Shown here piece after piece: positions 1,600 to 50,029 of a stretch of DNA of 64,000 bases. Positions within the stretch are counted from its first letter, which is position 1, and each line of letters starts with the position of its first letter. Under the pieces are notes generated by a model. That model had not been told where the DNA came from and made no database searches. It saw nothing but the letters and a program-made list of their open reading frames with translations. Location: assembly GCA_903813345.2 (NCBI GenBank), contig CAIIXF020000006.1, positions 23,815,936 through 23,879,935 of the forward strand. The letters run 5' to 3'. The translations under genes were made by a program, and so were the position numbers. This DNA comes from Owenia fusiformis (taxonomy: Eukaryota > Annelida > Polychaeta > Sabellida > Oweniidae).

Positions 1600-4500
1600 G
1601 TAAGAATTTTCTCAGTATAACGGTTTTTATCCAAATGTATCCGTGCATACTGAGCGAGAGGTTGAGCGAAAGGTCTTATTACTACAAATACAGAATACAC
1701 GTTAAAAAACTTATCTCACTACTTTACAGCCATTATTTACATTCATTACATTATATTTCATCTTAATCATTGAATTTTCAGATCAGTGCTTCGGGACAAT
1801 AGGGCAGTGGTTCATTCAGGATTTCTTCGACAATACTAAATACTGGGAGTGCGTAGATCAACGTCCACACCACCGAGATTGTGCACCTAAGTCTTGCGTG
1901 CCTGGCGACTATGGTGCTGGTTTCAACAACCCTTGCACAGAACATTGTGGGGCCACTTCAGAACCAGATGAACCATCAGAGGAAGAGGATTGCTCAGGTA
2001 GCAAGAATACTAAAGGATGTAGCAAAGAGAGCAGTAAAGAGTCTAGCAAAGAGAGCAGTAAAGAGTGTGGAAGTAAAGGAAGCAAAGGGTGCAGCAAAGA
2101 GAGCAGCAAAGAGAGTAGCAAAGAGAGCAGTAAAGAGTGCGGCAGTAAAGGAAGCAAAGGGTGCAGCAAAGAGAGCAGTAAAGAGAGTAGCAAAGAAACC
2201 AGTAAAGAGTCCAGCAAAGAGACCAGTGACGAGTGCGGCTCTAAAGGTAGCAAAGGGTGCAGCAAAGAGAGTAGTAAAGGAGACAGTAAAGAGAGCAGCA
2301 AAGGAGACAGTAAAGAAAGTAGTAAAGGTTCAAAGGAAGGCAAGGGAAGGCGAAGAAGGGGAACACAAAAATCTAAGGAAAGTGGATCTAAAGGTGGCTC
2401 GAAGGAAAGTGGATCTAAAGGGGGTTCAAAGGAAAGTGGATCTAAAGGGGGCTCAAAGGAAAGTGGATCTAAAGGGGGCTCAAAGGAAAGTGGATCTAAA
2501 GGGGGCTCAAAGGAAAGTGGATCTAAAGAGGGCTCGAAGGAAAGTGGATCTAAAGGGGGCTCAAAGGAAAGTGGATCTAAAGGAGGTTCGAAGGAAAGTG
2601 GATCTAAAGAGGGCTCGAAGGAAAGTGGATCTAAAGGGGGCTCGAAGGAAAGTGGATCTAAAGGGGGCTCAAAGGAAAGTGGATCTAAAGGAGGTTCAAA
2701 GGAAAGTGGATCTAAGGAAAGTGGCTCGAAAGAAAGTGGATCTAAAGGGGGCTCAAAGGAATGTGGATCTAAAGCGGGCTCAAAGGAATGTGGATCTAAA
2801 GGGGGCTCAAAGGAAAGTGGATCTAAAGGGGGCTCAAAGGAAAGTGGATCTAAAGGAGGTTCAAAGGAAAGTGGATCTAAAGGGGGTTCGAAGGAAAGTG
2901 GATCTAAAGGGGGCTCGAAGGAAAGTGGATCTAAGGAAAGTGGCTCGAAAGAAAGTGGATCTAAAGGGGACTCAAAGGAAAGTGGATCTAAAGGCGGCTC
3001 AAAGGAAAGTGGATCTAAAGGGGGCTCAAAGGAAAGTGGATCTAAAGGGAACTCAAAGGAAAGTGGATCTAAAGGCGGCTCAAAGGAAAGTGGATCTAAA
3101 GGGGGCTCAAAGGAAAGTGGATCTAAAGGCGGCTCAAAGGAAAGTGGATCTAAAGGGGCCTCGAAGGAAAGTGGATCTAAGGAAAGTGGATCCAAAGGTA
3201 CCTCGAAGGAAAGTGGGTCTAAAGGAAGTGAATCGAAGGAAAGTGGATCTAAAAGTGACAGCAGTAGATACTCTGACACCTCCAATTCGGAATCTTCTGA
3301 AGAGAGTGGTCCATCCAAGACAACCGAATGGCAGTTTGAGCGATGTAATGTGGATAGTTGTGATGGTAAGCGATGCCCCAATAATACCATTTATCTTTTT
3401 TTATCGCACTTTGAAAAAGTGCTTTATTGTCGTCGTCTTGTGCTGTTGGGCGGGCGTGCGGGCGTGCGGGCGTGCGGGCGGGCGGGCGGGCGGCACATAA
3501 ACCAAATCTTGTCATCAAATTTCCAGGATAACTGATTATTAGGTTAAGGGCATGCTGGGTAAACTACGTGGCGGCCATTTTGAATTTTTCAACAAATCTT
3601 GTCATCAAAATTCCAGGAAAACCACTTATCCGTTCAACTTGAAATTTTTACAGATGCAAGAGCAGACTATTGCCAAGATCTGATTAGGTTTTGGGTATGC
3701 TGGCTGAATTACATGGTGGCCATTTTGAATTTTTCAATTTGGCGGCCCTTTTGAATTTTTCAACTTGCTCCAAATTGACAATTTTTTTTAAAAAACATCT
3801 ACAAGTTCTCAGAAGTTCAAATCTGACCTTAGATTTCAGATTTGACCTTTCGTTCACCTTCAGTGACCTTGAAAAGGTCAAAAAAGTTGATTTTCGAAAT
3901 TGATATTTTGGATTTAAATTTAGGTCAGCTTAATTACAAAACACCTACTGAGGTCTGAAAAAGTAAAATTTTCGAGGTCGAAGGTCAAGGTCATTAAACT
4001 AGGTCACAAATGATGTTATCCAAGTTTCTCAAAGTTTGAGACTACAAATCAATTTTTGTCATCAAAATTCCAAGAAAACCGCTCACCTGTTCCACTTGAA
4101 ATTTTTACACATGCAATTGCAGACTAGTGCCAAGATCTGATTAGGTTTAGGGCATGCTGGGTAAATTACGTGGCGGCCATTTTGAATTTTTAAACAAATC
4201 TTGTCATCAAAATTCCAGGAAAACCACTTATCCGTTCAACTTGAAATTTTTACAGATGCAAGAGCAGATTATTGCCAAGATCTGATTAGGTTTTGGGTAT
4301 GCTGGCTGAATAACATGGTGGCCATTTTGAATTTTTCAATTTGGCGGCCATTTTGAATTTTTCAACTTGCTCCAAATTGACCAAATTTTTTTTTTAAAAC
4401 ATCTACAAGTTCTCAGAAGTTCAAATCTGACCTTAGATTTCAGATTTGACCTTTCGTTGACCTTCAGTGACCTTGAAAAGGTCAAAAATTTGATTTTCTA

Positions 4501-8889: not shown

Positions 8890-11800
8890 ATGGCAAATCT
8901 GGTAAGTTAATACCCTGCGTGCAGAGTCTAGTTAAACTACGAAGTTGAAGACGAAGCTCTCTTTTAAGAAGTGAAGTCAAACGAATGCAAAGGGTAGTAA
9001 GTTAATGTTCTCAACTCTTAATTCAACTTAATAACATACTGTGTTCCATGAAATATCGATATTACTTGGTGTATAATCGTAACTGCACCAATTAATTTAG
9101 ACGAGGCGAAAACAGGTCCTTAACTGTATCCGAATCTTATTTTAATGTAGGCATAACTTGTTCACGAGGTGCGATTCCCATTACTTCGTTTCATATTGTA
9201 GCTTTTCATTTCAGGTCTTCTTTGCATTATGCAGTTTATGCTTCGCATCTCACGCTTCTTCCCAATCTCTAGACATCACCGCGATAGTTGAGGGAACCGA
9301 TGTTGTAATCACGGGAGGGCCAACCCGTGTATTTGTCAATACCCTTATATGGAATATCACCGTTTTGGACGATAGATGGAGTGATGTTATGCTCCGGTCG
9401 TCTGCAGACGACATTTCGTTTGGTTATTCAACCTGGCTGGGAATCGACCCTCATATCTATAGTGGCTATTCTTTCAGAGTGTCGACAAAGCTAAAGCAAG
9501 TCAAGGCCACTGGGGTCGAGTTTTGGACGAAATCTGATGACCGCAAATCAATAGTGTTCTTAATAACGACAGAAGATCCTGAGCATTGGATACGTTTTCA
9601 AATAGGGGACTTCACGGAGACTCATTTTAGTATCTCCGCTAAGTTGTTCAATGAGAATACAGATGCCAAGGAACCGGGAAGCAAATACTGCTACGACATA
9701 GCGAAAGAAGTCGGTGATGATGTTTTCCGAGCTCTTAAAGATCTTACACCAAATGGTATTTGTGATGGGTTGGACATATGCTCGAAAAGTACCCATGGTT
9801 TATACTCTAATAACTTTAAAAAGAAAATGTTGAAATTACTTAAACAGCAAAGGATATCCAATTTTCTGAAAAACAATACTATTTGTGATCTCTGCTTGGA
9901 GGTTTTTGAAAAGCTTAGTTCAGAGCTACATTCTTTTTTACCAAATCCGGAACAAAACATAGAAGAAACAATGATGTCATTATGTGATCAAACCGGTCAA
10001 TACAGACTTGACATCGGCTTTCAAGGAGGCTCAGAAGAGGGATTCTTCGGGTTCGGGGAGCGGTTTAACGGGGTAAACCAAAGGGGAAATTCCCTGTATT
10101 GCTGGACTGAAGATGGTGGATTCAGTCTTAACATCTTGCCTGATACAAGAATTCCTCATTTCTTTACGCCAACAGAAACATACATTCCTTCTCCATATTT
10201 TGTATCTTCGAGGGGATATGGGCTTTATATGAATACAACTTTTAGGACATCGTGGGATATGCTTCATACAAATGGACAAAGCTTCTCGATACAGAATGAA
10301 AATACAGAAATGCAGTTGATTGTATTAACAAGGAGGACTCCATTAGAGAACATGCAAACGTACACTGCCCTCACTGGTCGCCCCTTAATTCCTCCAACAT
10401 TTGAATTTGGTCCTTGGATCCGTGCGTCTCAGGAAATCCATATCAGTGACAATGTCCAAGCGTTCCAGAAGCTGCACCAAATGGACATCCCATCAAGTGT
10501 ACTGTTTGATTCAAACCATTTCTTCCCCGAAGGTGGTGACCATAGCAACACGAAAAAAACAACAAATGAGAAACTGAAAACGATGGGTATAATCCCTCTA
10601 GCGTACTTCAATAGCATGATATCAACATCATACATTCCTGTCTTCGAGGAGGCTGAAAACTCGGGTTACCTCATCAAGCTTAATAATCAGACATACATAT
10701 TTAGCTATAAAGGGGCAGGTCCAAACCCATTCAAGGTTGGCATGATTGATTTCACTGCACCGGGAGCCGTGGATTGGTATGGGAGACAGTTAAACCAATC
10801 GGTCCTAGTTTCCTATAATGGGTTCACATATGACTATGGGGAGTACATCGATCCTGAATGCACTTTTCATAATGGCATGACAGGGAGAGAAATGCACAAT
10901 TTATATCCAGTTCTCTACCAAGAGGCAGCATACTCTTTCTTTGAAACCTTTGATGCCAATCCAGATGATGAATATGCTCCACCATACGTTTATTGCTGTC
11001 GATCAGGTTATAGCGGATCTGGGAAGAGTAACTGGGCGACATGGACAGGTAGGGCCATCTTCTTAAAGCCTAACGGTCATTTTACAACGGTTAATCACGT
11101 TGCTGTTATCAATTGCAATCATTTTGGTTTCCTGATTTTTACTGAAATATTCCGGAATTCGATATTCATGAACACTTTGCTGTAATAGGTAGTAATGACT
11201 TCATCGAGGTTGAATCATCATCTCATTATTCCAGGAGACCCGATGTGTGATTGGTCAAATGATTCAGGCCTACCTGCACAGGTGCATGCCATGTTGAGTG
11301 CCAGTATCTCTGGTATATCATTCATAGGATCTGACATAGGTGAGTATGCAAAGACATTTTTTGATTTGATTCTCAAAATCAAATCATAGAATTGTACAAC
11401 ATCGACGCAGTTTATCACTTCCCATAATCTCCATGCTGAATCACTGAGTGAATGAGCAAGTTTGATTTGGACTCGGAATGACTGAGCGGAAGGAAAGATC
11501 CAAGACAGAGCTGAAATCTGTTGAACCAAAAGTTGCATACACATGTACATAGTGCTCGTTTTGTAGGTGGATTTGTTTGGTTTGATCCGCCTTCTGCAGA
11601 ACTGTGGTGCAGGTGGGCCCAAGTCGGTGCATTTTCAGGCATAATGCGCACGCAAGATGGGGGTACTGCAATGTCGGGTCAACCCAAATCCCACATATTA
11701 GACACACCGGAAGGGGTATACGTGTGGCGAAAGATGGCTAAACTCCGAACGGCACTTTTTCCTTACATCTACACCAGCGCGCATGCCTCACACTATGAAG

Positions 11801-12843
11801 GGATCCCAATCATGAGACACCACATATTAAGTTTTGCAGACGACCCTACCGCTCGCGCCATTGATACACAATATATGTTTGGACCTGATTTCCTGGTTGC
11901 TCCCGTCATTGAGGAACATTCCAAAAAGCAATTAGTATACCTACCTCGTTCTTCAACTGACATAGACCCTGTTGAATGGTACGATATATCTCAGATGAAC
12001 TACGACAATAGAACTGATGGGAGGTTCAGAGTTGGCAATACAAAACTCGTCAGTGGAGGACAGAGTGTCGTAGTTGATGCCCCCCTTGATATAGTACCAA
12101 TATTCGTACGAGCAGGTGTGTAATATAATCGAAGGATAATCGAACACGTCTTTATCAAGTATTTTGCTTTAGTTCAAAGAGAAAATAGTTCGTATTTGAA
12201 TGTCTATCTTCCCTTACGTAATATTCACAACTATTGTCACTGTTTATTTATCTCATTTGCAGGAGCCGCTGTTCCGACACTTGATCCCTCAGTTTGGAGC
12301 CTTGGTAACTCATCTGATCCTTCCTTCGTATCGTTAGGCAATCGCTCTAATATCCTGCATTGGTGGGTATGGCCAAATAAGACAGGTGGCGCTATTGGTC
12401 GTTCGTATGACGGTACCTACATCGTACTTCATCAATTGTCAAAACGCTATATTGGTGATCATTATAAAAATGGTGACGTCATTAGAATGTCAATCGATTC
12501 GGATAATAGCGACATGGGAAATGAACATGAAGTAGCAATCAAAATGTTGGAAATATATGACAGAATGGAAAGAACAGCTATCATACAAATAGCCCTACCC
12601 GATATAGGAGCACAACCCATTGAATTCTCAGTCACTGATGACCGAAATTATGTATACAAAATGGCGGAAAGTTGGAAAGTCCTAAGTGATATAACAATGC
12701 CCACATCTAACCACTGCCAGTGGTTCTTTGACACGGACAACTTGGTCCTTTGGATAAAAGGAACTTTTACGTGCAATGATTTGAGTTCAAACAATAATTT
12801 TGAATCATTTGGCAAAAGAACATTGACAATAAGGCAGATATAG
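8890..12843 (+). CDS. Secreted GH31 family glycosidase with inserted saposin-like (swaposin) domain
   Basis: Model: 8890-8901, 9215-11048, 11235-11339, 11567-12115, 12263-12843, giving 1026 residues. Exon 1 supplies only MANL before GTAAGT. Exon 2 (acceptor TTTCATTTCAG) continues VFFALCSLCFASHASS, so together they make a typical signal peptide, and this decides the start; CAAATGG is a fair Kozak context. An N-terminal beta domain is followed by a saposin-like insert at about residues 157-263, then GH31 motifs: FFGFGERFNGVNQRG, FTYDYGEY (Asp544 the probable nucleophile), TWTGDPMCDWS (Asp617 the probable acid/base) and GSDIGGF. DYGEY and the later MHNLYP resemble the bacterial YihQ/sulfoquinovosidase-like and alpha-glucosidase subgroup of GH31 rather than lysosomal GAA. 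About 190 residues of C-terminal beta domain complete it. It is expected to be secreted or lysosomal and to act on alpha-linked glycosides; the substrate cannot be read from sequence. Confidence 0.9.
8911..8998. repeat. Short dispersed repeat, TACCCT...AGGGTA ends
   Basis: An 88-bp unit with GCAGAGTCTAGTTAAACTAC and GAAGCTCTCTTTTAAGAAGT in intron 1 of the GH31 gene. Similar copies occur at about 37835-37920 (opposite strand) and 62245-62335 (same strand). Short inverted ends TACCCT/AGGGTA suggest a tiny MITE. Confidence 0.7.
9674..9990 (+). other. Swaposin domain inside the GH31 protein
   Basis: The six Cys at residues 163, 187, 193, 228, 231 and 261 fall as C-x23-C-x5-C, a 34-residue linker, then C-x2-C-x29-C. 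The first half (YCYDIAKEVGDDVFRALKD through ICDGLDIC) matches the C-terminal half of saposin B domains. The second (ICDLCLEVFEKLSSELHSF through MMSLC) matches the N-terminal half. This is the swapped order known from the plant-specific insert of aspartic proteinases. The linker is basic (KKKMLKLLKQQ) and an NNT glycosylation sequon precedes the second half. It lies within one exon, just before the GFGERF motif. Confidence 0.85.
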
Positions 12844-31167: not shown

Positions 31168-32461
31168 CGAGGGAAGATCCAAAAGTTTCCGGCCTAACAT
31201 AGTTCTAGTTGATGGATTTTCAAAATGATAGTGTCATTTTTCAATGTAGTCTCCCTGTACTTCGATGCACTTGGCCCATCTTCTTGGCAGCATCTCAAGT
31301 CCAGTTCTGAAGAAATCAGGAGCATGACCCTCCAACCACTGGTTAACAGCTATCTTGACCTCATCATCATCATCATAGCGTTGCCCTCGTAGAGATTTTT
31401 TGAGTTTCCCAAATAGGTAATAGTCACTGGGTGCTTGATCTGGAGAATAGGGTGCGTGCGGTAATAATTCCAGATGGCATTCTTCCGCTGCATCACGAGC
31501 AACTTGGCTTGTGTGAACAGGTGCATTGTCCTGTTGATGCAAAACTCCAAGACGGACTTTGTGTGGCCTGGTTTCATCAAGTCTAGCTTTTAAAGTACGC
31601 AACAAAGCAGCATAATATTCTCCGTTCATTGTAGTACCTCTTGGAAGGTAGTCTACTAAGATAGGACCTTCACAGTCCCAGAAAATAGTGGCCATCATCT
31701 TTTTGTTGGATGGGGTGGTGCGAAACTTCTTTGGGGGTGGAGACCCCATATGTTTCCATTGCATTGACTCATGTTTGGTTGAAGGCTCAAAATGACGCAC
31801 CCATGTTTCATCACAAGTGACTATTCTCTCCATAAAACCTTGTGGATCAGTGTTATACATGTCCAAAAGCTCTCTTGCAACAGCAACTCGTTTTGTTTTC
31901 ATGTCCTCTGTGAGCATACGGGGCACCCATCTTGAGCTTAACTTTTGCATGTGTAAATCTTCATGAATTATTCTACAAACGGTACCATATGATAATCCAG
32001 TTTCTTCTACAAGTTCACGTATAGATTTCCGCCTATCTTCCAATATTGTTCGATGTACAAGATCAACATTTCTATCTGTAGTGACATCTTTAGGTCTTCC
32101 AGAACGTGGTGCATCATCAATTGATTCCCGTCCACGTTTAAATTCAGCCACCCAAAATTTTACAGTAGAATAGGAGGGAGCACATTCCCCATACACATCC
32201 TTAAGTCTATCGTAGATTTCATGCCCTCCATTTTCTTCTTGATATAGAAACTTTATCACATCTCTATATTCAGTTTTCTCCATTGTGCAGCCACTGTGAC
32301 CTGACCTCATTATGAATATTCTCAAAATGAGGCTGTGACCCCTAGAGGTTAATCATATGCATAAATTATGTTCATACATAAGCAACATTTGAACTGTGAA
32401 GAATGGTTGCTCTCAGACATCGGGAACTATGTTAGGCCGGAAACTTTTGGATCTTCCCTCG
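31168..32461 (-). mobile_element. Complete mariner transposon
   Basis: 1294 bp with 38-bp terminal inverted repeats that match perfectly by eye (starting CGAGGGAAGATCCAAAAGTT) and TA target duplications at 31166-31167 and 32462-32463. It encodes one uninterrupted transposase on the minus strand. Perfect ends plus an intact frame point to a recent, possibly autonomous insertion. Confidence 0.95.
31234..32283 (-). CDS. Mariner transposase (DD34D), intact
   Basis: Cut-and-paste transposase of 349 residues. The start is taken at MEKTEYRD (32283) since 345-350 residues is the usual length. Two helix-turn-helix segments lie at about residues 5-50 and 85-110, the latter with SIRELVEETGLSYGTVCRII. 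The linker WVPRMLTE is at about 119-126. The catalytic triad is Asp158 (VTCDETW), Asp252 (HQQDNAPVHTS) and Asp287 (YSPDQAPSDYYLF), with 34 residues between the last two, as expected for mariner. No stops or frameshifts. The flanking terminal repeats match it in orientation. It acts in the nucleus on its own ends. Confidence 0.95.
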   Translation of the reverse strand: MEKTEYRDVIKFLYQEENGGHEIYDRLKDVYGECAPSYSTVKFWVAEFKRGRESIDDAPRSGRPKDVTTDRNVDLVHRTILEDRRKSIRELVEETGLSYGTVCRIIHEDLHMQKLSSRWVPRMLTEDMKTKRVAVARELLDMYNTDPQGFMERIVTCDETWVRHFEPSTKHESMQWKHMGSPPPKKFRTTPSNKKMMATIFWDCEGPILVDYLPRGTTMNGEYYAALLRTLKARLDETRPHKVRLGVLHQQDNAPVHTSQVARDAAEECHLELLPHAPYSPDQAPSDYYLFGKLKKSLRGQRYDDDDEVKIAVNQWLEGHAPDFFRTGLEMLPRRWAKCIEVQGDYIEK

Positions 32462-41646: not shown

Positions 41647-43583
41647 TCAGAGTCTATGAGGGGGTACACCGCGGTTGTGCCTTACGGGATATCTTTGGTG
41701 TTGTTCAGGTATTTCATCCTCCTCATTTCTTAATGGGATATTGGGGTGGTATTCCTGATTACGCTGAGGCTGGGGTGGTTGGCGAGATGCTGGTATTGGG
41801 TCAGGGTTTTGTAGTAGGGGTTTGAAGAATGATGAATTCCTTGTTCGTGTGATGTCATCATTCTTGGCGGTGATAGTGCTTCCTCTGACTTTGGTAACTG
41901 TCATAGGTTTGGGGATATATTTTGGTATAAGCCTTTCTTGGTGTCCTTGCAAAGTACCTTGTCGCCAACTTTGATGGTATGTTGTTTTATCGACCTGTGA
42001 TTCTCGGCATTTGTTTTCATTGCAGCCTTTCGTTTTTGGTCTGCAGTGCGGAGAGGGTGGTCAATCTCTGGGTTTGGGGTAGGTCCAAGATCAGGGATGC
42101 CTATGTACATTTTGCGATTGAACATAGCTTCATAGGGGGATATTCCAGTGGTAGAGTGGGGTGTTGCATTGTGGTTACGTAGCCATCTAAATAGTTGCTG
42201 TTTCCAGTTTTGGCCTTCTACGATTGCTGCCTGGGCTACTTTGTTGATGTTTTTCATGATTGACTCAACGCTGCCATTACTTTCTGGCCAGAGTGGTGTG
42301 ACTCTGTGGTGGTTGATTCCATTGTGAGTCATAAATTTGGCGAATTCATGACTATCGAAGGGTGGGCCATTGTCGCTTTTCAGATTGCGGGGTGTTCCAA
42401 AAGAGCTGAACATTCTGTCCATTTTGGGTATAACTGCTCTTGATGATGTGCTTGTGGTTATAGCAATGTCCAAATATCTTGAGTAGTCATCTTTTACAAC
42501 TAGGACATACTCATTGGATGGGTAGGGTCCAGAGAAGTCAACTGATAAGTTTGTCCATGGGGCAGGTGGTAGCTCGCTCATCTTGATGGGGTCACGGGGA
42601 GGGTTTGTTGTGGTTGCCTGGCAGGGAATACACGTTTTAACTTTGTGTTCTACCTGTCCACTAAGGTACGGGAACCAAACTTTGGTACGCAACAACGATT
42701 TTGTCTTTGTAGCTCCTTGATGACCTGCGTGTGCTAATTCAATAGCCTTCGATTGAAGATTCTCTGGTAGGACGAGCAGGTTTCCTCTTATGAGGATGTC
42801 GTCCTGTGTAACGGATAGTTCATCTTTCACTTTGGCGTATATTGCCATGTGACGTAAGTTCACCGCTTGATCAGGGGGTTGTTGTGAGATATGCCACTGG
42901 TTTGATGTGATTATTTGGCGCAGCCACTTAAGGGTAGGGTCAGTGATACTGGCTGATTTGACCTCAGCTAAGGTCATGGCCTTGGGTATATCATACTCAG
43001 AGACTAGGTTCAGATAGCTCTCTGCGATTTGTGATAATTGCTCATTACCAGATGTGGGTAGGGGGTGTCTGGATAGGTAATCAGCAGGGTTGTTGTTTCC
43101 AGGTTTGTATACAACAGTAAATGTATAGTCCTGTAGTCTCAGCATCCATCTTTGTATGCGTGGAGGGGGGTTAGCTCCAGGGTTACTGAACATGGGGACT
43201 AATGGCTTGTGGTCTGTGGTTATGGTGAACGGCTTTCCAAGCAGATATAGACGGTTAGATTCTATACCCCAGCATGCACCAAGGGCCTCACGCTCGGTCT
43301 GTGAGTATCTGGCTTCAACGGGGGTCAGGGATCTGCTTCCGTAGTGGATGATTTTACCATTTTGAGATAATATGGCTGATAGTCCAACTGGGGATGCATC
43401 AACATGCACTATGGTATCCAACTGGGGGTCAAAGTAAGCCATGCAGGTTTCAGATTTGAGGGCGGCTTTGGTTTCATCAAAAGCCTGTTGGTGTGTGGGG
43501 GTCCATGTCCATTTGACATGCTTCAGGGTGAGGTCACGAAGTGGTTTGGTTATGGTTGCTAGATCCACTTTTGCTGAACTCAC
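41647..43583 (-). pseudogene. Ty3/Gypsy pol, second part: RNase H and integrase (frameshifted)
   Basis: Continues pol in another frame. RNase H motifs are HVDASPVGLSAIL, REALGACWGIE and TDHKPLV. The integrase zinc finger (AHAGHQGATKTKSLLR with a later CIPC) is followed by LSVDFSGPY, LKSDNGPPF and NGSVES as the DDE core. The C-terminal tail (KVRGSTITAKNDD to about 41647) is in a third frame after a slip near 41935. The N-terminal connection segment normally found between the RT KCEF motif and TKPLRDLT is missing, about 50 residues compared with relatives. Confidence 0.85.
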
Positions 43584-45459
43584 ATTTTTGGGAGTTTATT
43601 GTGAGATTGTTCTCATCCAAGCGTTGTAGTACAGCCTTCAGTGCACGATTGTGGTCATCAGTGGTTTTTCCGAATATGAATATGTCGTCACTGATGTTGA
43701 TTTGATTAGGTATGCCTTGTAGGACTTGACGCACTAGATCCTGGAAAACCTCACTGGCGCTACATATTCCAAAGTTCAGCCTTTTATAGCGGTATAGGCC
43801 ACAGTGCGTCTGGAATGTGGTAATGTATCGTGACTCAGGATTTAGCTCTATTTGGTGATATCCTTTGTTGAGGTCAATTTTGGAGAACGTGGTCGCGCCA
43901 TTGACCTGGCGTATGATATCATCCATGGTGGGTGTGAAATGACGTGTTCTCATGATGGCGGTATTCGCGGACCTCATATCAGTACAGATTCTGATTTGAT
44001 CCGACTGTTTCTTGTTAACGATAACGATAGGTGATACCCATGGGGTAGGGCCGTCAACTGGTTCGATGATATCATGTGATAGGAGACTTTCGATTTCAGC
44101 CTCTACTTTTCCACGAAGATGAAAGGGAGTTCGGTTGTGTGTTTGGGCAACAGGGGGTACGGTTTTATCAATGTGTAGTTTCACTTGTTTGTCCTTTAGT
44201 TTCCCTATTCCCGTTAAGATGGAGCTGTGGTTGTTTAAGATATCCTGAATAACTGAGGGTGTCCCAGCATGGTTGAGGTTGTAGGTTATGTTGATGAGCT
44301 CCAGCTGTCTTGCAGCTTCATAGGATAAGATGGGTGTTATAGAGGGGTCATCTATAACATGGATGGTGGTAGTAATAGTTATGCTTCCATAGCTAAGGGA
44401 GGTCTTGAAGCTTCCCATAAAACTCAGGGGTTCCTTTCCTGCAAAGGCATACACAGGGGATCTGATTGGTGCCAGTTGTGGTTCTGGGTGTAGATTCTGC
44501 AGTGTCTGGTTATTGATCACATTAACAGAGGATCCTGTATCCAGCAGGAAATTGATATCCAGGTTATCCAATTTCAGGGTGATATGTGGGCATCTGGGTA
44601 AGGATTTGAGAGGAAATGCGTAGTCTGCAGACGGGTTAATGGGTGCTTCGTCTGGATTGGCCATGTGCTCAGTGACCTGCCTGACCTTCTGGCTTTGGCT
44701 AGGGGCTGGTTTCTGCCCTGATCTACACATCTTCGAAAAATGGTTCATCCTCCCGCATTGCCCGCAGTGCTTTCCTTTTGCTGGGCATGTAGATGTGTGG
44801 GGGTACGGTCCGCCGCATAGTCCACAGGTAGATGATTTCTGGTTGGTTGAGGTTACATTGTTATTCCTGTGGCGATATGCCTGCTTATGTAGTGCATTAA
44901 TGTCCTCTTTTGTGGTTTTTGTTATGTCCTCTGCTTGGGACGATGATTGGATTTGGTACCTGGCGTAGTCCAGTAATTTCTTGAGGTCCCAATTGTTTGA
45001 CGGATTTAGTGCCTTTTTTCGCAAGGTGTCATCAGTGGTGCCGACGATGATTTGCCGTTTCACCTCAATATCCTCCTGGTCGTTGAAGTCGCAGTTTACG
45101 CTTTGTGATCTCAGGCGTGTGTAAAACTGCATGATGGTTTCAGATTCTTCTTGTTTGAGCAACCTGAATGATATAATTTCAAAGTCAATATTCTTCCTTG
45201 GTTCGAAATACTCCAAGAGGTTCTGTTTCGCTGATTCGAAATCATCATCCGATCCAGTGTTTCCCAATGTTTCGAATAGATCGTGGAGTTGAGGACCTCC
45301 AAAATGCAATAGCATTGCTCTTTGCCTTTTTGCATTGGTAATGTTTTCAGCGACTAGAAACGTCTCGAATCGCCGAATCCATTTCTTCCAAGCGGTGGAT
45401 GCGTTGGTTTGGTGGATGTCAAATGGTGGGAACGTGATGCCGTTACTCCTCGTCGCCAT
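43534..45459 (-). CDS. Ty3/Gypsy gag-protease-RT open frame (3' truncated)
   Basis: 641 codons beginning with the ATG directly inside the 5' LTR (MATRSNGITFPPFDIHQTNA). The Gag-like region is followed by two zinc knuckles (CGLCGGPYPHTSTC and CGQCGRMNHFSKMC), an aspartic protease motif LLDTGSS, and reverse transcriptase with FSKIDLNKGYHQIEL, LNFGICSASEVFQ and NISDDIFIFG in the catalytic-loop position. It ends soon after KCEFSKSG in a non-homologous tail, because the frame is shifted there. Gag and Pol are fused in one frame without a stop between them. Confidence 0.9.
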   Translation of the reverse strand: MATRSNGITFPPFDIHQTNASTAWKKWIRRFETFLVAENITNAKRQRAMLLHFGGPQLHDLFETLGNTGSDDDFESAKQNLLEYFEPRKNIDFEIISFRLLKQEESETIMQFYTRLRSQSVNCDFNDQEDIEVKRQIIVGTTDDTLRKKALNPSNNWDLKKLLDYARYQIQSSSQAEDITKTTKEDINALHKQAYRHRNNNVTSTNQKSSTCGLCGGPYPHTSTCPAKGKHCGQCGRMNHFSKMCRSGQKPAPSQSQKVRQVTEHMANPDEAPINPSADYAFPLKSLPRCPHITLKLDNLDINFLLDTGSSVNVINNQTLQNLHPEPQLAPIRSPVYAFAGKEPLSFMGSFKTSLSYGSITITTTIHVIDDPSITPILSYEAARQLELINITYNLNHAGTPSVIQDILNNHSSILTGIGKLKDKQVKLHIDKTVPPVAQTHNRTPFHLRGKVEAEIESLLSHDIIEPVDGPTPWVSPIVIVNKKQSDQIRICTDMRSANTAIMRTRHFTPTMDDIIRQVNGATTFSKIDLNKGYHQIELNPESRYITTFQTHCGLYRYKRLNFGICSASEVFQDLVRQVLQGIPNQINISDDIFIFGKTTDDHNRALKAVLQRLDENNLTINSQKCEFSKSGSSNHNQTTS

Positions 45460-45682
45460 TGTAATGATCTGATAGATCGGTAGATATTGATTGGTTATTG
45501 GTTATTGATGTGAGTCTATAGAATATAATAATGACAAGCACAAGATGTAGTGTGTTCACTCATGGTGTATATTCTTTTAACTGATGAACCAGGATGTCTC
45601 CTGGTAAGATGATACATATGGGTACATGTGGTCAGTGGTCAGTTAGTACAACATATGGTATTATATAAATGAGGTCATTACA
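45460..45682 (-). repeat. LTR of Ty3/Gypsy element (5' LTR)
   Basis: A 223-bp copy matching 41082-41304. On the minus strand it is followed at once by A-TGGCGACGAGGAGT, a TGG-starting sequence in primer-binding-site position that overlaps the gag start codon. Confidence 0.95.
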
Positions 45683-48349: not shown

Positions 48350-49453
48350 CTAAATGTATGATAATGGTTCTACATGATCTTTATCTAATATTTCAGGAAT
48401 AAAAACTGAATGCAAAGATACATTTCTGTAAATTAATGTTTCAATGGCTCCTTCGCCATGTCGGCTCCTTTTCACAGTTGGATAACACGAGTTTGCTATA
48501 TCCGAACACTTTACTTTTTTCCTGTCCTTTGTTAGCTTCTCTTCCATATGGTTGTACCAATAATACTCACACTGGAACTTTTTCACACCATATCGTGCTT
48601 TAAAAAGAGACACAGGATTTTTTATAGAAGGGTACCAGCCACGGCTAATTGGACGCTTGTGTATCGGATAAAAATCGTTTATACTGATGAATTCTTTCAG
48701 AAGTTTACGTTCCCATACATGCGTTCCATTGTTTACAAAAGGATAAATGTCTATAAATGGCAATCTCCATTGGAAAGGTTTCCTAGCCGGAGGTGAAGAA
48801 CATTTGTAAAACTTTGCTTGGAGGAAAAGGGAAGTGTCTCCGTTGTTCCAAATCTCTCTCCAAGCAGAGAAGTTTCTTCTTTGAATGCCACACTGAAATT
48901 CTTTGTATATGTTTCGTCCATCTGTCATACTATGAACGCCGTATCTGCCCGTCTCGACCAACTCCTGAAAAGCCAACATTTGCCTTTCATAATCTCTTTG
49001 GTCGGTATTAATATCAATGTCATCATCCCATGGGATAATGTCATGGAAGAGATACGAGCCAAGTAGCGACCCACCCTTTAACACATAGGTGACGTTATAT
49101 TTTTTGAAAGCACGATCTAGTTCTGCTAGAATTTCATAGAGGTCGCTGAACATCGAGTCGGGTACACGCCTTGGTAATAATGAACAATTTGTTATAAATA
49201 AAGGATGCAGCACATTATTTTTCTCTCGTGTAAAGGTCGCATTTCTGAACCGTGAACGTTCTAAAGATTTCGTTAGATCCATACTGTACTTCTCCTGTTT
49301 TGCATTTCCCGTACCGTTCAAAAGTATCCGATCGTTGTTTGTAATGTTTGGTGTTCGCTTTACCATTCTATGAGATACGAAAAAGAAATAGTATGACAAT
49401 AGCATCGAATTGAAAATAACAAAAATAGCTATGGATCTCTGTAAGGTCTTCAT
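48350..49453 (-). CDS. LicD/fukutin-type type II membrane protein (intronless)
   Basis: 367 residues in one exon, starting at MKTLQRS. A hydrophobic signal anchor at residues 8-26 (IAIFVIFNSMLLSYYFFFV) and a stem with N-glycosylation sequons predict a Golgi or ER lumenal enzyme. The catalytic part shows LKGGSLLGSYLFHDIIPWDD (residues 125-144) continuing DIDI, and FIDIYPF at 233-239; these are the Gly-Gly and metal-binding Asp motifs of the LicD/FKTN-FKRP nucleotidyltransferase-fold family. Relatives transfer phosphocholine or ribitol phosphate onto glycans; the actual donor here is unknown. All family motifs are intact and there is no frameshift. Absence of introns among intron-rich neighbours suggests a retrocopy or a lineage of single-exon genes. 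Confidence 0.88.
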   Translation of the reverse strand: MKTLQRSIAIFVIFNSMLLSYYFFFVSHRMVKRTPNITNNDRILLNGTGNAKQEKYSMDLTKSLERSRFRNATFTREKNNVLHPLFITNCSLLPRRVPDSMFSDLYEILAELDRAFKKYNVTYVLKGGSLLGSYLFHDIIPWDDDIDINTDQRDYERQMLAFQELVETGRYGVHSMTDGRNIYKEFQCGIQRRNFSAWREIWNNGDTSLFLQAKFYKCSSPPARKPFQWRLPFIDIYPFVNNGTHVWERKLLKEFISINDFYPIHKRPISRGWYPSIKNPVSLFKARYGVKKFQCEYYWYNHMEEKLTKDRKKVKCSDIANSCYPTVKRSRHGEGAIETLIYRNVSLHSVFIPEILDKDHVEPLSYI

Positions 49454-50029
49454 AATTCATCTACTTAATCCCAATTAACCTTGTTTAATTAAGTTATATC
49501 TCCGAGTTTCCAACAATATTGTGAGAACTGGTTAGGACGGTGGCTATTTAACTTCGTCTTTAATATACGCTCTCCCTCAAAAGTTTGGGAACCTGGATTC
49601 TCCATGCGTTGGTGATGTGTTAATATTTAATCCACTTTGGGAGATTCAATTTAATTCAAACTCATATTCAGGCTGAATAAAATTATACCATTCTAAAAGA
49701 CATTGTCTAGTTAAAACTTAGTTCATTAGAAACTCAATGTTTCCATAGTTTTGGAGTTGATATTTATGCATATGCTCATAATAAAATCAATTTTATAGCT
49801 ACCTGGATTATATGTTTGATCAATAAATACAAAAGCACTAAAAATACTTCTTGTAACGTGCAATTATATAATTTATTATAAGTCATATACGCGTCCCGAG
49901 TAAAGAAGGCGAAATCCAAGAATGTGCTGGCTCAGTTAGAATGAATGATTCAGAGCGATTCAGTGATCATGCTTATTAATAGTACCCAAGTCGTGTCTTA
50001 CCCAATCAAATTGAAGCAATATGAAAACA

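Follow-up and report, generated by a model that had tools for sequence, protein, structure and literature searches.

The GH31 glycosidase gene on the plus strand of the window (the whole 64,000-nucleotide stretch of DNA analysed here) carries an in-frame insert with six cysteines in the order of a saposin whose two halves have changed places. On balance, its product appears to be a secreted GH31 enzyme with a circularly permuted saposin-like domain in its N-terminal beta domain, through which the enzyme would contact lipids or membranes in cis. This is probably a swaposin-like domain outside the plant proteases, and its origin is probably independent of theirs. The gene is modelled with five exons, which once joined encode an open protein of 1026 residues. 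The features of the gene and insert, by position in the window, are as follows.

8890..8901, plus strand: exon 1, with the initiation codon and the opening 4 residues of the putative signal peptide, followed 3' by a GT donor; the joined frame is open.
9215..11048, plus strand: exon 2, with the remaining signal peptide, the N-terminal beta domain and insert, and most of the catalytic TIM barrel.
9680..10000, plus strand: the permuted saposin-like (swaposin-like) insert, residues 160-266, inside exon 2.
9689..9781, plus strand: first half of the insert, the counterpart of a saposin's C-terminal half (SapB_2-like), with C163, C187 and C193; aligned with saposin profile positions 45-77 and saposin C residues 46-85.
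9782..9883, plus strand: linker of the insert, 34 residues, basic, partly predicted helix, with the sequon N224-N-T.
9884..9985, plus strand: second half of the insert, the counterpart of a saposin's N-terminal half (SapB_1/ARMET_N-like), with C228, C231 and C261.
10832-10834, plus strand: codon of the presumed nucleophile D544, in exon 2.
11235..11339, plus strand: exon 3, with the presumed acid/base D617 at 11237-11239 (position reckoned by hand from the spliced model).
11567..12115, plus strand: exon 4, with the end of the barrel and part of the C-terminal beta domain.
12263..12843, plus strand: exon 5, with the C-terminal region and stop codon.

All four introns (313, 186, 227 and 147 bases) have a GT donor and an AG acceptor. 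The encoded protein starts with a signal-peptide-like stretch, as judged by eye, and is matched in Pfam by the GH31 barrel (PF01055; residues 395-720, E-value: 2.2e-45), the C-terminal domain (PF21365; residues 729-836, E-value: 4.6e-19) and the second part only of the N-terminal domain (PF13802; residues 268-352, model positions 109-184 of 184, E-value: 4.5e-9). Its top relatives among solved structures are the Listeria cycloalternan-forming enzyme Lmo2446 (E-value: 4.8e-48), the GH31 sulfoquinovosidase 8r56 and YicI. The protein is thus nearer to the bacterial Lmo2446 than to the animal chains of lysosomal alpha-glucosidase (E-value: 1.8e-23) or MYORG (E-value: 1.5e-9); either an old transfer or the retention of an ancient lineage may account for this. 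Because sulfoquinovosidases rank high among the solved relatives, this substrate class was considered and not adopted; by eye, the protein does not show the sulfonate motif of such enzymes. A search of the same genome with the whole protein gave nine matches, four of them pieces of the gene itself and the other five weak and distant. A scan of genome contigs with exon 2 alone gave 13 candidate stretches, none of them a relative, and no saposin or GH31 relative was confirmed in the viral contigs searched.

In all, 97 prokaryotic relatives were found, 80 of which were retained and 79 aligned (one 447-aa ORF was excluded). The columns of D544 and D617 are 100% Asp among the homologs that have a residue there, and both residues also line up with Asp residues of Lmo2446. 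D544 is taken to be the GH31 nucleophile and D617 the acid/base. Like Lmo2446 and the YicI-type GH31 enzymes, the window enzyme combines the catalytic barrel and C-terminal domain with both of these residues. Two other positions depart from the relatives: Gln680 (exon 4) lies at a column that is His in 76 of 79, and Ser471 (exon 2) at one where Pro is invariant among the relatives that cover it. Judged from the alignment, these substitutions may alter substrate specificity. The first-pass annotation had called the enzyme otherwise intact, which holds for both catalytic aspartates but not for the near-invariant His, nor for a hairpin-like stretch of the relatives that was not found (see below).

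Further features lie elsewhere in the window. A long Ser/Lys/Glu-rich tandem repeat frame follows a short cysteine-bearing stretch at 1706-3532; it has no Pfam match, and much of it is also open in another plus-strand frame and on the minus strand. Positions 1275-1763 show a weak match to peritrophin-A (CBM_14; E-value: 0.00038), just under the curated cut-off. The minus strand encodes an open mariner-type transposase frame at 31237-32352 (Transposase_1, E-value: 7.3e-23), gypsy-like retroelement frames at 41904-45501 (RNase H and integrase matches in 41904-43595, with 43537-45501 assigned by eye) and a LicD-family protein at 48353-49456 (E-value: 8.8e-11). Together with the introns of the GH31 gene, the transposase, gypsy-like element, peritrophin match and LicD gene indicate that the genome is very probably that of an animal.

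In the spliced model the cysteines of the insert read C163-x23-C187-x5-C193, then 34 residues, then C228-x2-C231-x29-C261, as first described from the sequence; the first bases of their codons are 9689, 9761, 9779, 9884, 9893 and 9983. They form two groups of three with the spacing of saposins. The insert also proved to be in frame within one exon, as had been proposed: 9674-9990 is free of stops in the GH31 frame and lies inside 9215-11048. Base-shuffled copies of this stretch were stop-free in 7 of 20,000 cases, as were 3 of 990 stretches of 318 bases sampled at 50-base intervals across 13500-63000 in a single frame. Among 4151 ORFs of at least 60 aa, taken from the window and from every locus collected up to that stage, 4 show the swapped order of six cysteines: the frame in the window, L001 and L010 (both the same place) and L016, a tandem saposin array of the same genome. 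A search of the same genome with the insert returned only itself and four places at chance level (E-values from 2.4 to 8.6).

Likeness to saposins was scored with a canonical profile of four sequences, two from the same genome and two human. The insert reaches 13.9 bits in native order and 15.8 bits with its halves exchanged, and in neither order did any of 4000 cysteine-fixed shuffles reach the score. The best piece sharing no sequence with the insert scored 8.4 bits among 7630 background pieces of up to 107 aa, counted after removal of the insert and saposin loci (L001, L010, L015 and L016). With the halves exchanged there is a single alignment over profile positions 3-77 with the cysteines in register. 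In native order there are two partial matches: the first half takes positions 45-77 in register, and the end of the linker with the second half takes positions 12-38 out of register, leaving C-x2-C unaligned. The swapped order of the saposin halves, a central point of the first-pass annotation, is borne out by the alignment of the first half with positions 45-77, the single in-register alignment of the exchanged insert and the position of C-x2-C in the second half; the cysteine spacing is like that of the plant-specific insert (PSI). Most of the saposin signal is carried by the first half of the insert and the second half is weak (10.5 and 4.5 bits alone; 11.5 bits for the native order without the linker). 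Profiles of single halves gave scores reached by 162 of 5000 shuffles for the first half and 1842 of 5000 for the second. When the profile was instead built from three swapped-register sequences, 13 of 4000 shuffles reached the score of the native insert and 24 of 4000 that of the exchanged one.

Pfam appears less sensitive here. The SapB_1 and SapB_2 profiles had been put forward at the outset as a check whose failure would count against a saposin, and at E-values up to 10 neither matched the protein as a whole or the complete insert. The second half alone matches ARMET_N, which is taken to be a saposin-like family (E-value: 0.0056), and SapB_1 (E-value: 0.066; 13.7 bits, where the cut-off is 25.2), neither of which reaches its curated cut-off; SapB_2 was not reported for it. 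The missing match to the whole insert is read as low sensitivity of Pfam, and the insert is classed as saposin-like, not as a member of a curated family.

Two saposin C chains come first when the native insert is compared with solved structures by phmmer, with E-values (0.54 and 0.74) that are not significant alone; the C-terminal half of saposin C (residues 46-85) aligns with the first half of the insert. The exchanged insert again has these two chains at the top (E-values: 0.038 and 0.042), and they now span both halves in an alignment that is out of register at the C-x2-C of the second half. Plant PSI is absent from the 12 matches of the native insert (E-values up to 10) and the 9 of the exchanged insert, both being short and divergent queries.

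The saposin array mentioned above lies outside the window (L016, G000:C9:34619135-34624480, third frame). It is a prosaposin-like gene with a 1782-residue open frame, in which 17 SapB_1 and 18 SapB_2 matches follow one another in a row, nearly identical and mostly at 267-base spacing; further, more diverged repeats lie on both sides. The array served as a control for half order. In swapped register it matches potato PSI 3rfi collinearly over residues 11-108, and in canonical register its best stretch covers one half of 3rfi. The swapped register between neighbouring repeats thus matches PSI and therefore shows how a tandem array can yield the swapped order.

Structure prediction for the insert alone, without an alignment, gave mostly helices (AlphaFold; pLDDT 58.9, pTM 0.50), and Foldseek and VIA-align searches with this low-confidence model listed no saposin among their matches. 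Exon 2 was modelled with an alignment of 51 of the 80 prokaryotic relatives (12 with the N-domain, 39 trimmed). This model has the GH31 fold (mean pLDDT 68.6; its fold matches are GH31 enzymes) and a mainly helical insert with pLDDT mostly below 50 and one low-confidence strand at 257-261. Of the helical saposin fold named in the first-pass annotation, the models show the helices, but no saposin appears among the fold matches and confidence is too low to confirm the fold; as modelled, the insert is compatible with it. Amphipathicity is strong in the helix of the first half, where 1 of 5000 shuffles reached it, and moderate in the first helix of the second half (108 of 5000). For the linker helix 203-222 it is not significant: 3435 of 5000 shuffles reached it, and 346 of 5000 did so for the core at 203-216.

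The exon 2 model also places the insert more precisely. It is flanked by the predicted N-domain strands 141-150 and 267-274, and so lies inside the N-terminal beta domain and not, as originally annotated, past its end and ahead of the GFGERF motif. At the same place prokaryotic relatives such as L033 carry about 58 residues (counted by eye), including a hairpin-like stretch, which from its sequence is presumably a beta-hairpin. A profile of this stretch, built from 70 of the 79 aligned relatives, matches the window protein neither at the insert site nor upstream, and the insert is for this reason considered to stand in place of the hairpin. A YSN motif suggested that the linker might itself be the hairpin-like stretch, a candidate that was rejected when 918 of 3000 shuffles scored as high. 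The first-pass annotation had suggested looking for the insert in other GH31 enzymes, and its swapped cysteine pattern is absent from all 80 prokaryotic relative loci.

The mechanism proposed for the insert is as follows. Its helices would run in the order 3-4-linker-1-2, and it would fold autonomously with three disulfides across the halves, C228-C193, C231-C187 and C261-C163, by analogy with those of potato PSI (C6-C99, C31-C71 and C37-C68, as given in the available text of PMC5717070). It probably originated as a piece of a tandem saposin gene made up of the second half of one saposin, the linker and the first half of the next; a permuted saposin would seem well suited to insertion into a loop. 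The amphipathic helices and basic linker would let the enzyme dock at membranes or glycolipids, and docking would bring sugar head groups to the GH31 active site. Free saposins, which aid other glycosidases in trans, and the saposin domain of acid sphingomyelinase, which acts in cis, offer a parallel. A bolder account, held only tentatively, is that the swaposin was born a second time, independently and outside plants: a half-plus-half piece of a tandem saposin gene may have replaced the hairpin of a bacterial-type GH31 enzyme. An animal glycosidase would in this way have acquired a permuted domain of its own, similar to a sphingolipid activator, through which glycolipids are lifted into its active site.

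The same domain could have other uses, with defence and sorting as the chief rivals to the reading above. The likeliest of these alternatives, although improbable, is a role in defence, in which the permuted saposin would be a membrane-disrupting module on a glycosidase that strips microbial glycans. The linker has the basic character expected of such a module (+7.8 at pH 7, computed on 31 of its 34 residues) and the nearest solved GH31 relatives are bacterial enzymes. Killer saposins are cationic, however, and the halves of the insert are acidic (-3.6 and -7.5 at pH 7; -2.4 for the whole insert). In favour of defence, plant PSIs disrupt bilayers and one of them is active as an antimicrobial peptide, according to the available text of PMC5717070 and PMC7407137, respectively. 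PSIs also function in vacuolar sorting (available text of PMC6784193 and PMC11547502), and the insert could likewise be a sorting or folding element that targets the enzyme to a lytic compartment without handling substrate. The signal-peptide-like N-terminus, as judged by eye, and the sequon at N224, next to the second half, are in keeping with such a role, but the PSI pathway belongs to plants, and this explanation is considered quite improbable.

It is also improbable, to a similar degree, that the GH31 N-domain has gained a cysteine-rich helical expansion of some other kind, whose resemblance to a saposin is due to chance. The whole insert has no match to a Pfam saposin family, the fold models are weak, and the second half is weak and partly out of register. 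Because two of the second-half alignments are out of register, chance resemblance was given more weight and the preferred explanation less. Against chance stand the saposin profile score, which no shuffle with the same cysteines reached, the cysteine spacing near that of potato PSI, the saposin C chains at the top of the solved-structure matches in both orders, and the confinement of the swapped pattern elsewhere among the 4151 ORFs to a tandem saposin array. Finally, an unspliced intron or gene-model artefact can be given very little credence: the introns of the model are short and 26 in-phase GT..AG pairs lie around the insert, but these pairs are weak by eye, stop-free frames of this kind are rare among shuffles, and the cysteine pattern and amphipathic helices are signals at the protein level.

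The permuted saposin-like domain favoured here is most readily compared with the PSI of plant aspartic proteinases. According to the available text of PMC3320104, the swaposin was the first case of a natural circular permutation to be recognised between two genes, and it is termed exclusive to plants. No saposin in a GH31 enzyme and no swaposin outside plant proteases was found among the literature matches listed, which cover few subscription papers and leave room for such a report; in the available text of two non-plant papers (PMC9576764 and PMC5087659) the word 'swaposin' occurs in a reference only. Potato StAP (3RFI) and barley phytepsin (1QDM) share with the insert the half order 3-4-1-2, a length of about 100 residues, a linker of approximately 30 residues and a position within a hydrolase. 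The cysteine spacing of potato PSI, derived from its disulfide positions in PMC5717070, is close but unequal to that of the insert (24/5/30/2/27 and 23/5/34/2/29, respectively). The two differ in that the linker of the insert is basic, unlike that of plant PSI, and the host is a GH31 glycosidase in a genome that is very probably animal, instead of an aspartic proteinase. If the proposed reading is true, this would be a second swaposin in another enzyme class, and tandem saposin genes could seed permuted domains more than once.

Saposins and prosaposin (the C9 tandem array and human saposin C) resemble the insert in the cysteine pattern of each half, the helix pattern and a weak profile similarity. 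They are in canonical order and occur separately or in tandem, whereas the insert is permuted and fused to an enzyme. Hydrolases with a saposin-type domain of their own are also known. In acid sphingomyelinase and acyloxyacyl hydrolase (5w78) this domain is canonical and N-terminal to the catalytic domain, and not permuted and set within a glycosidase's N-terminal beta domain as here. Acid sphingomyelinase requires the interface between its saposin and catalytic domains for activity (available text of PMC4961792). The available text of PMC11014568 describes saposin B as an essential activator of alpha-galactosidase A on glycolipid. If the insert acts as proposed, the window enzyme would provide a single-chain model for saposin-aided access of glycosidases to glycolipids, which otherwise takes two proteins, as with saposin B and alpha-galactosidase A.
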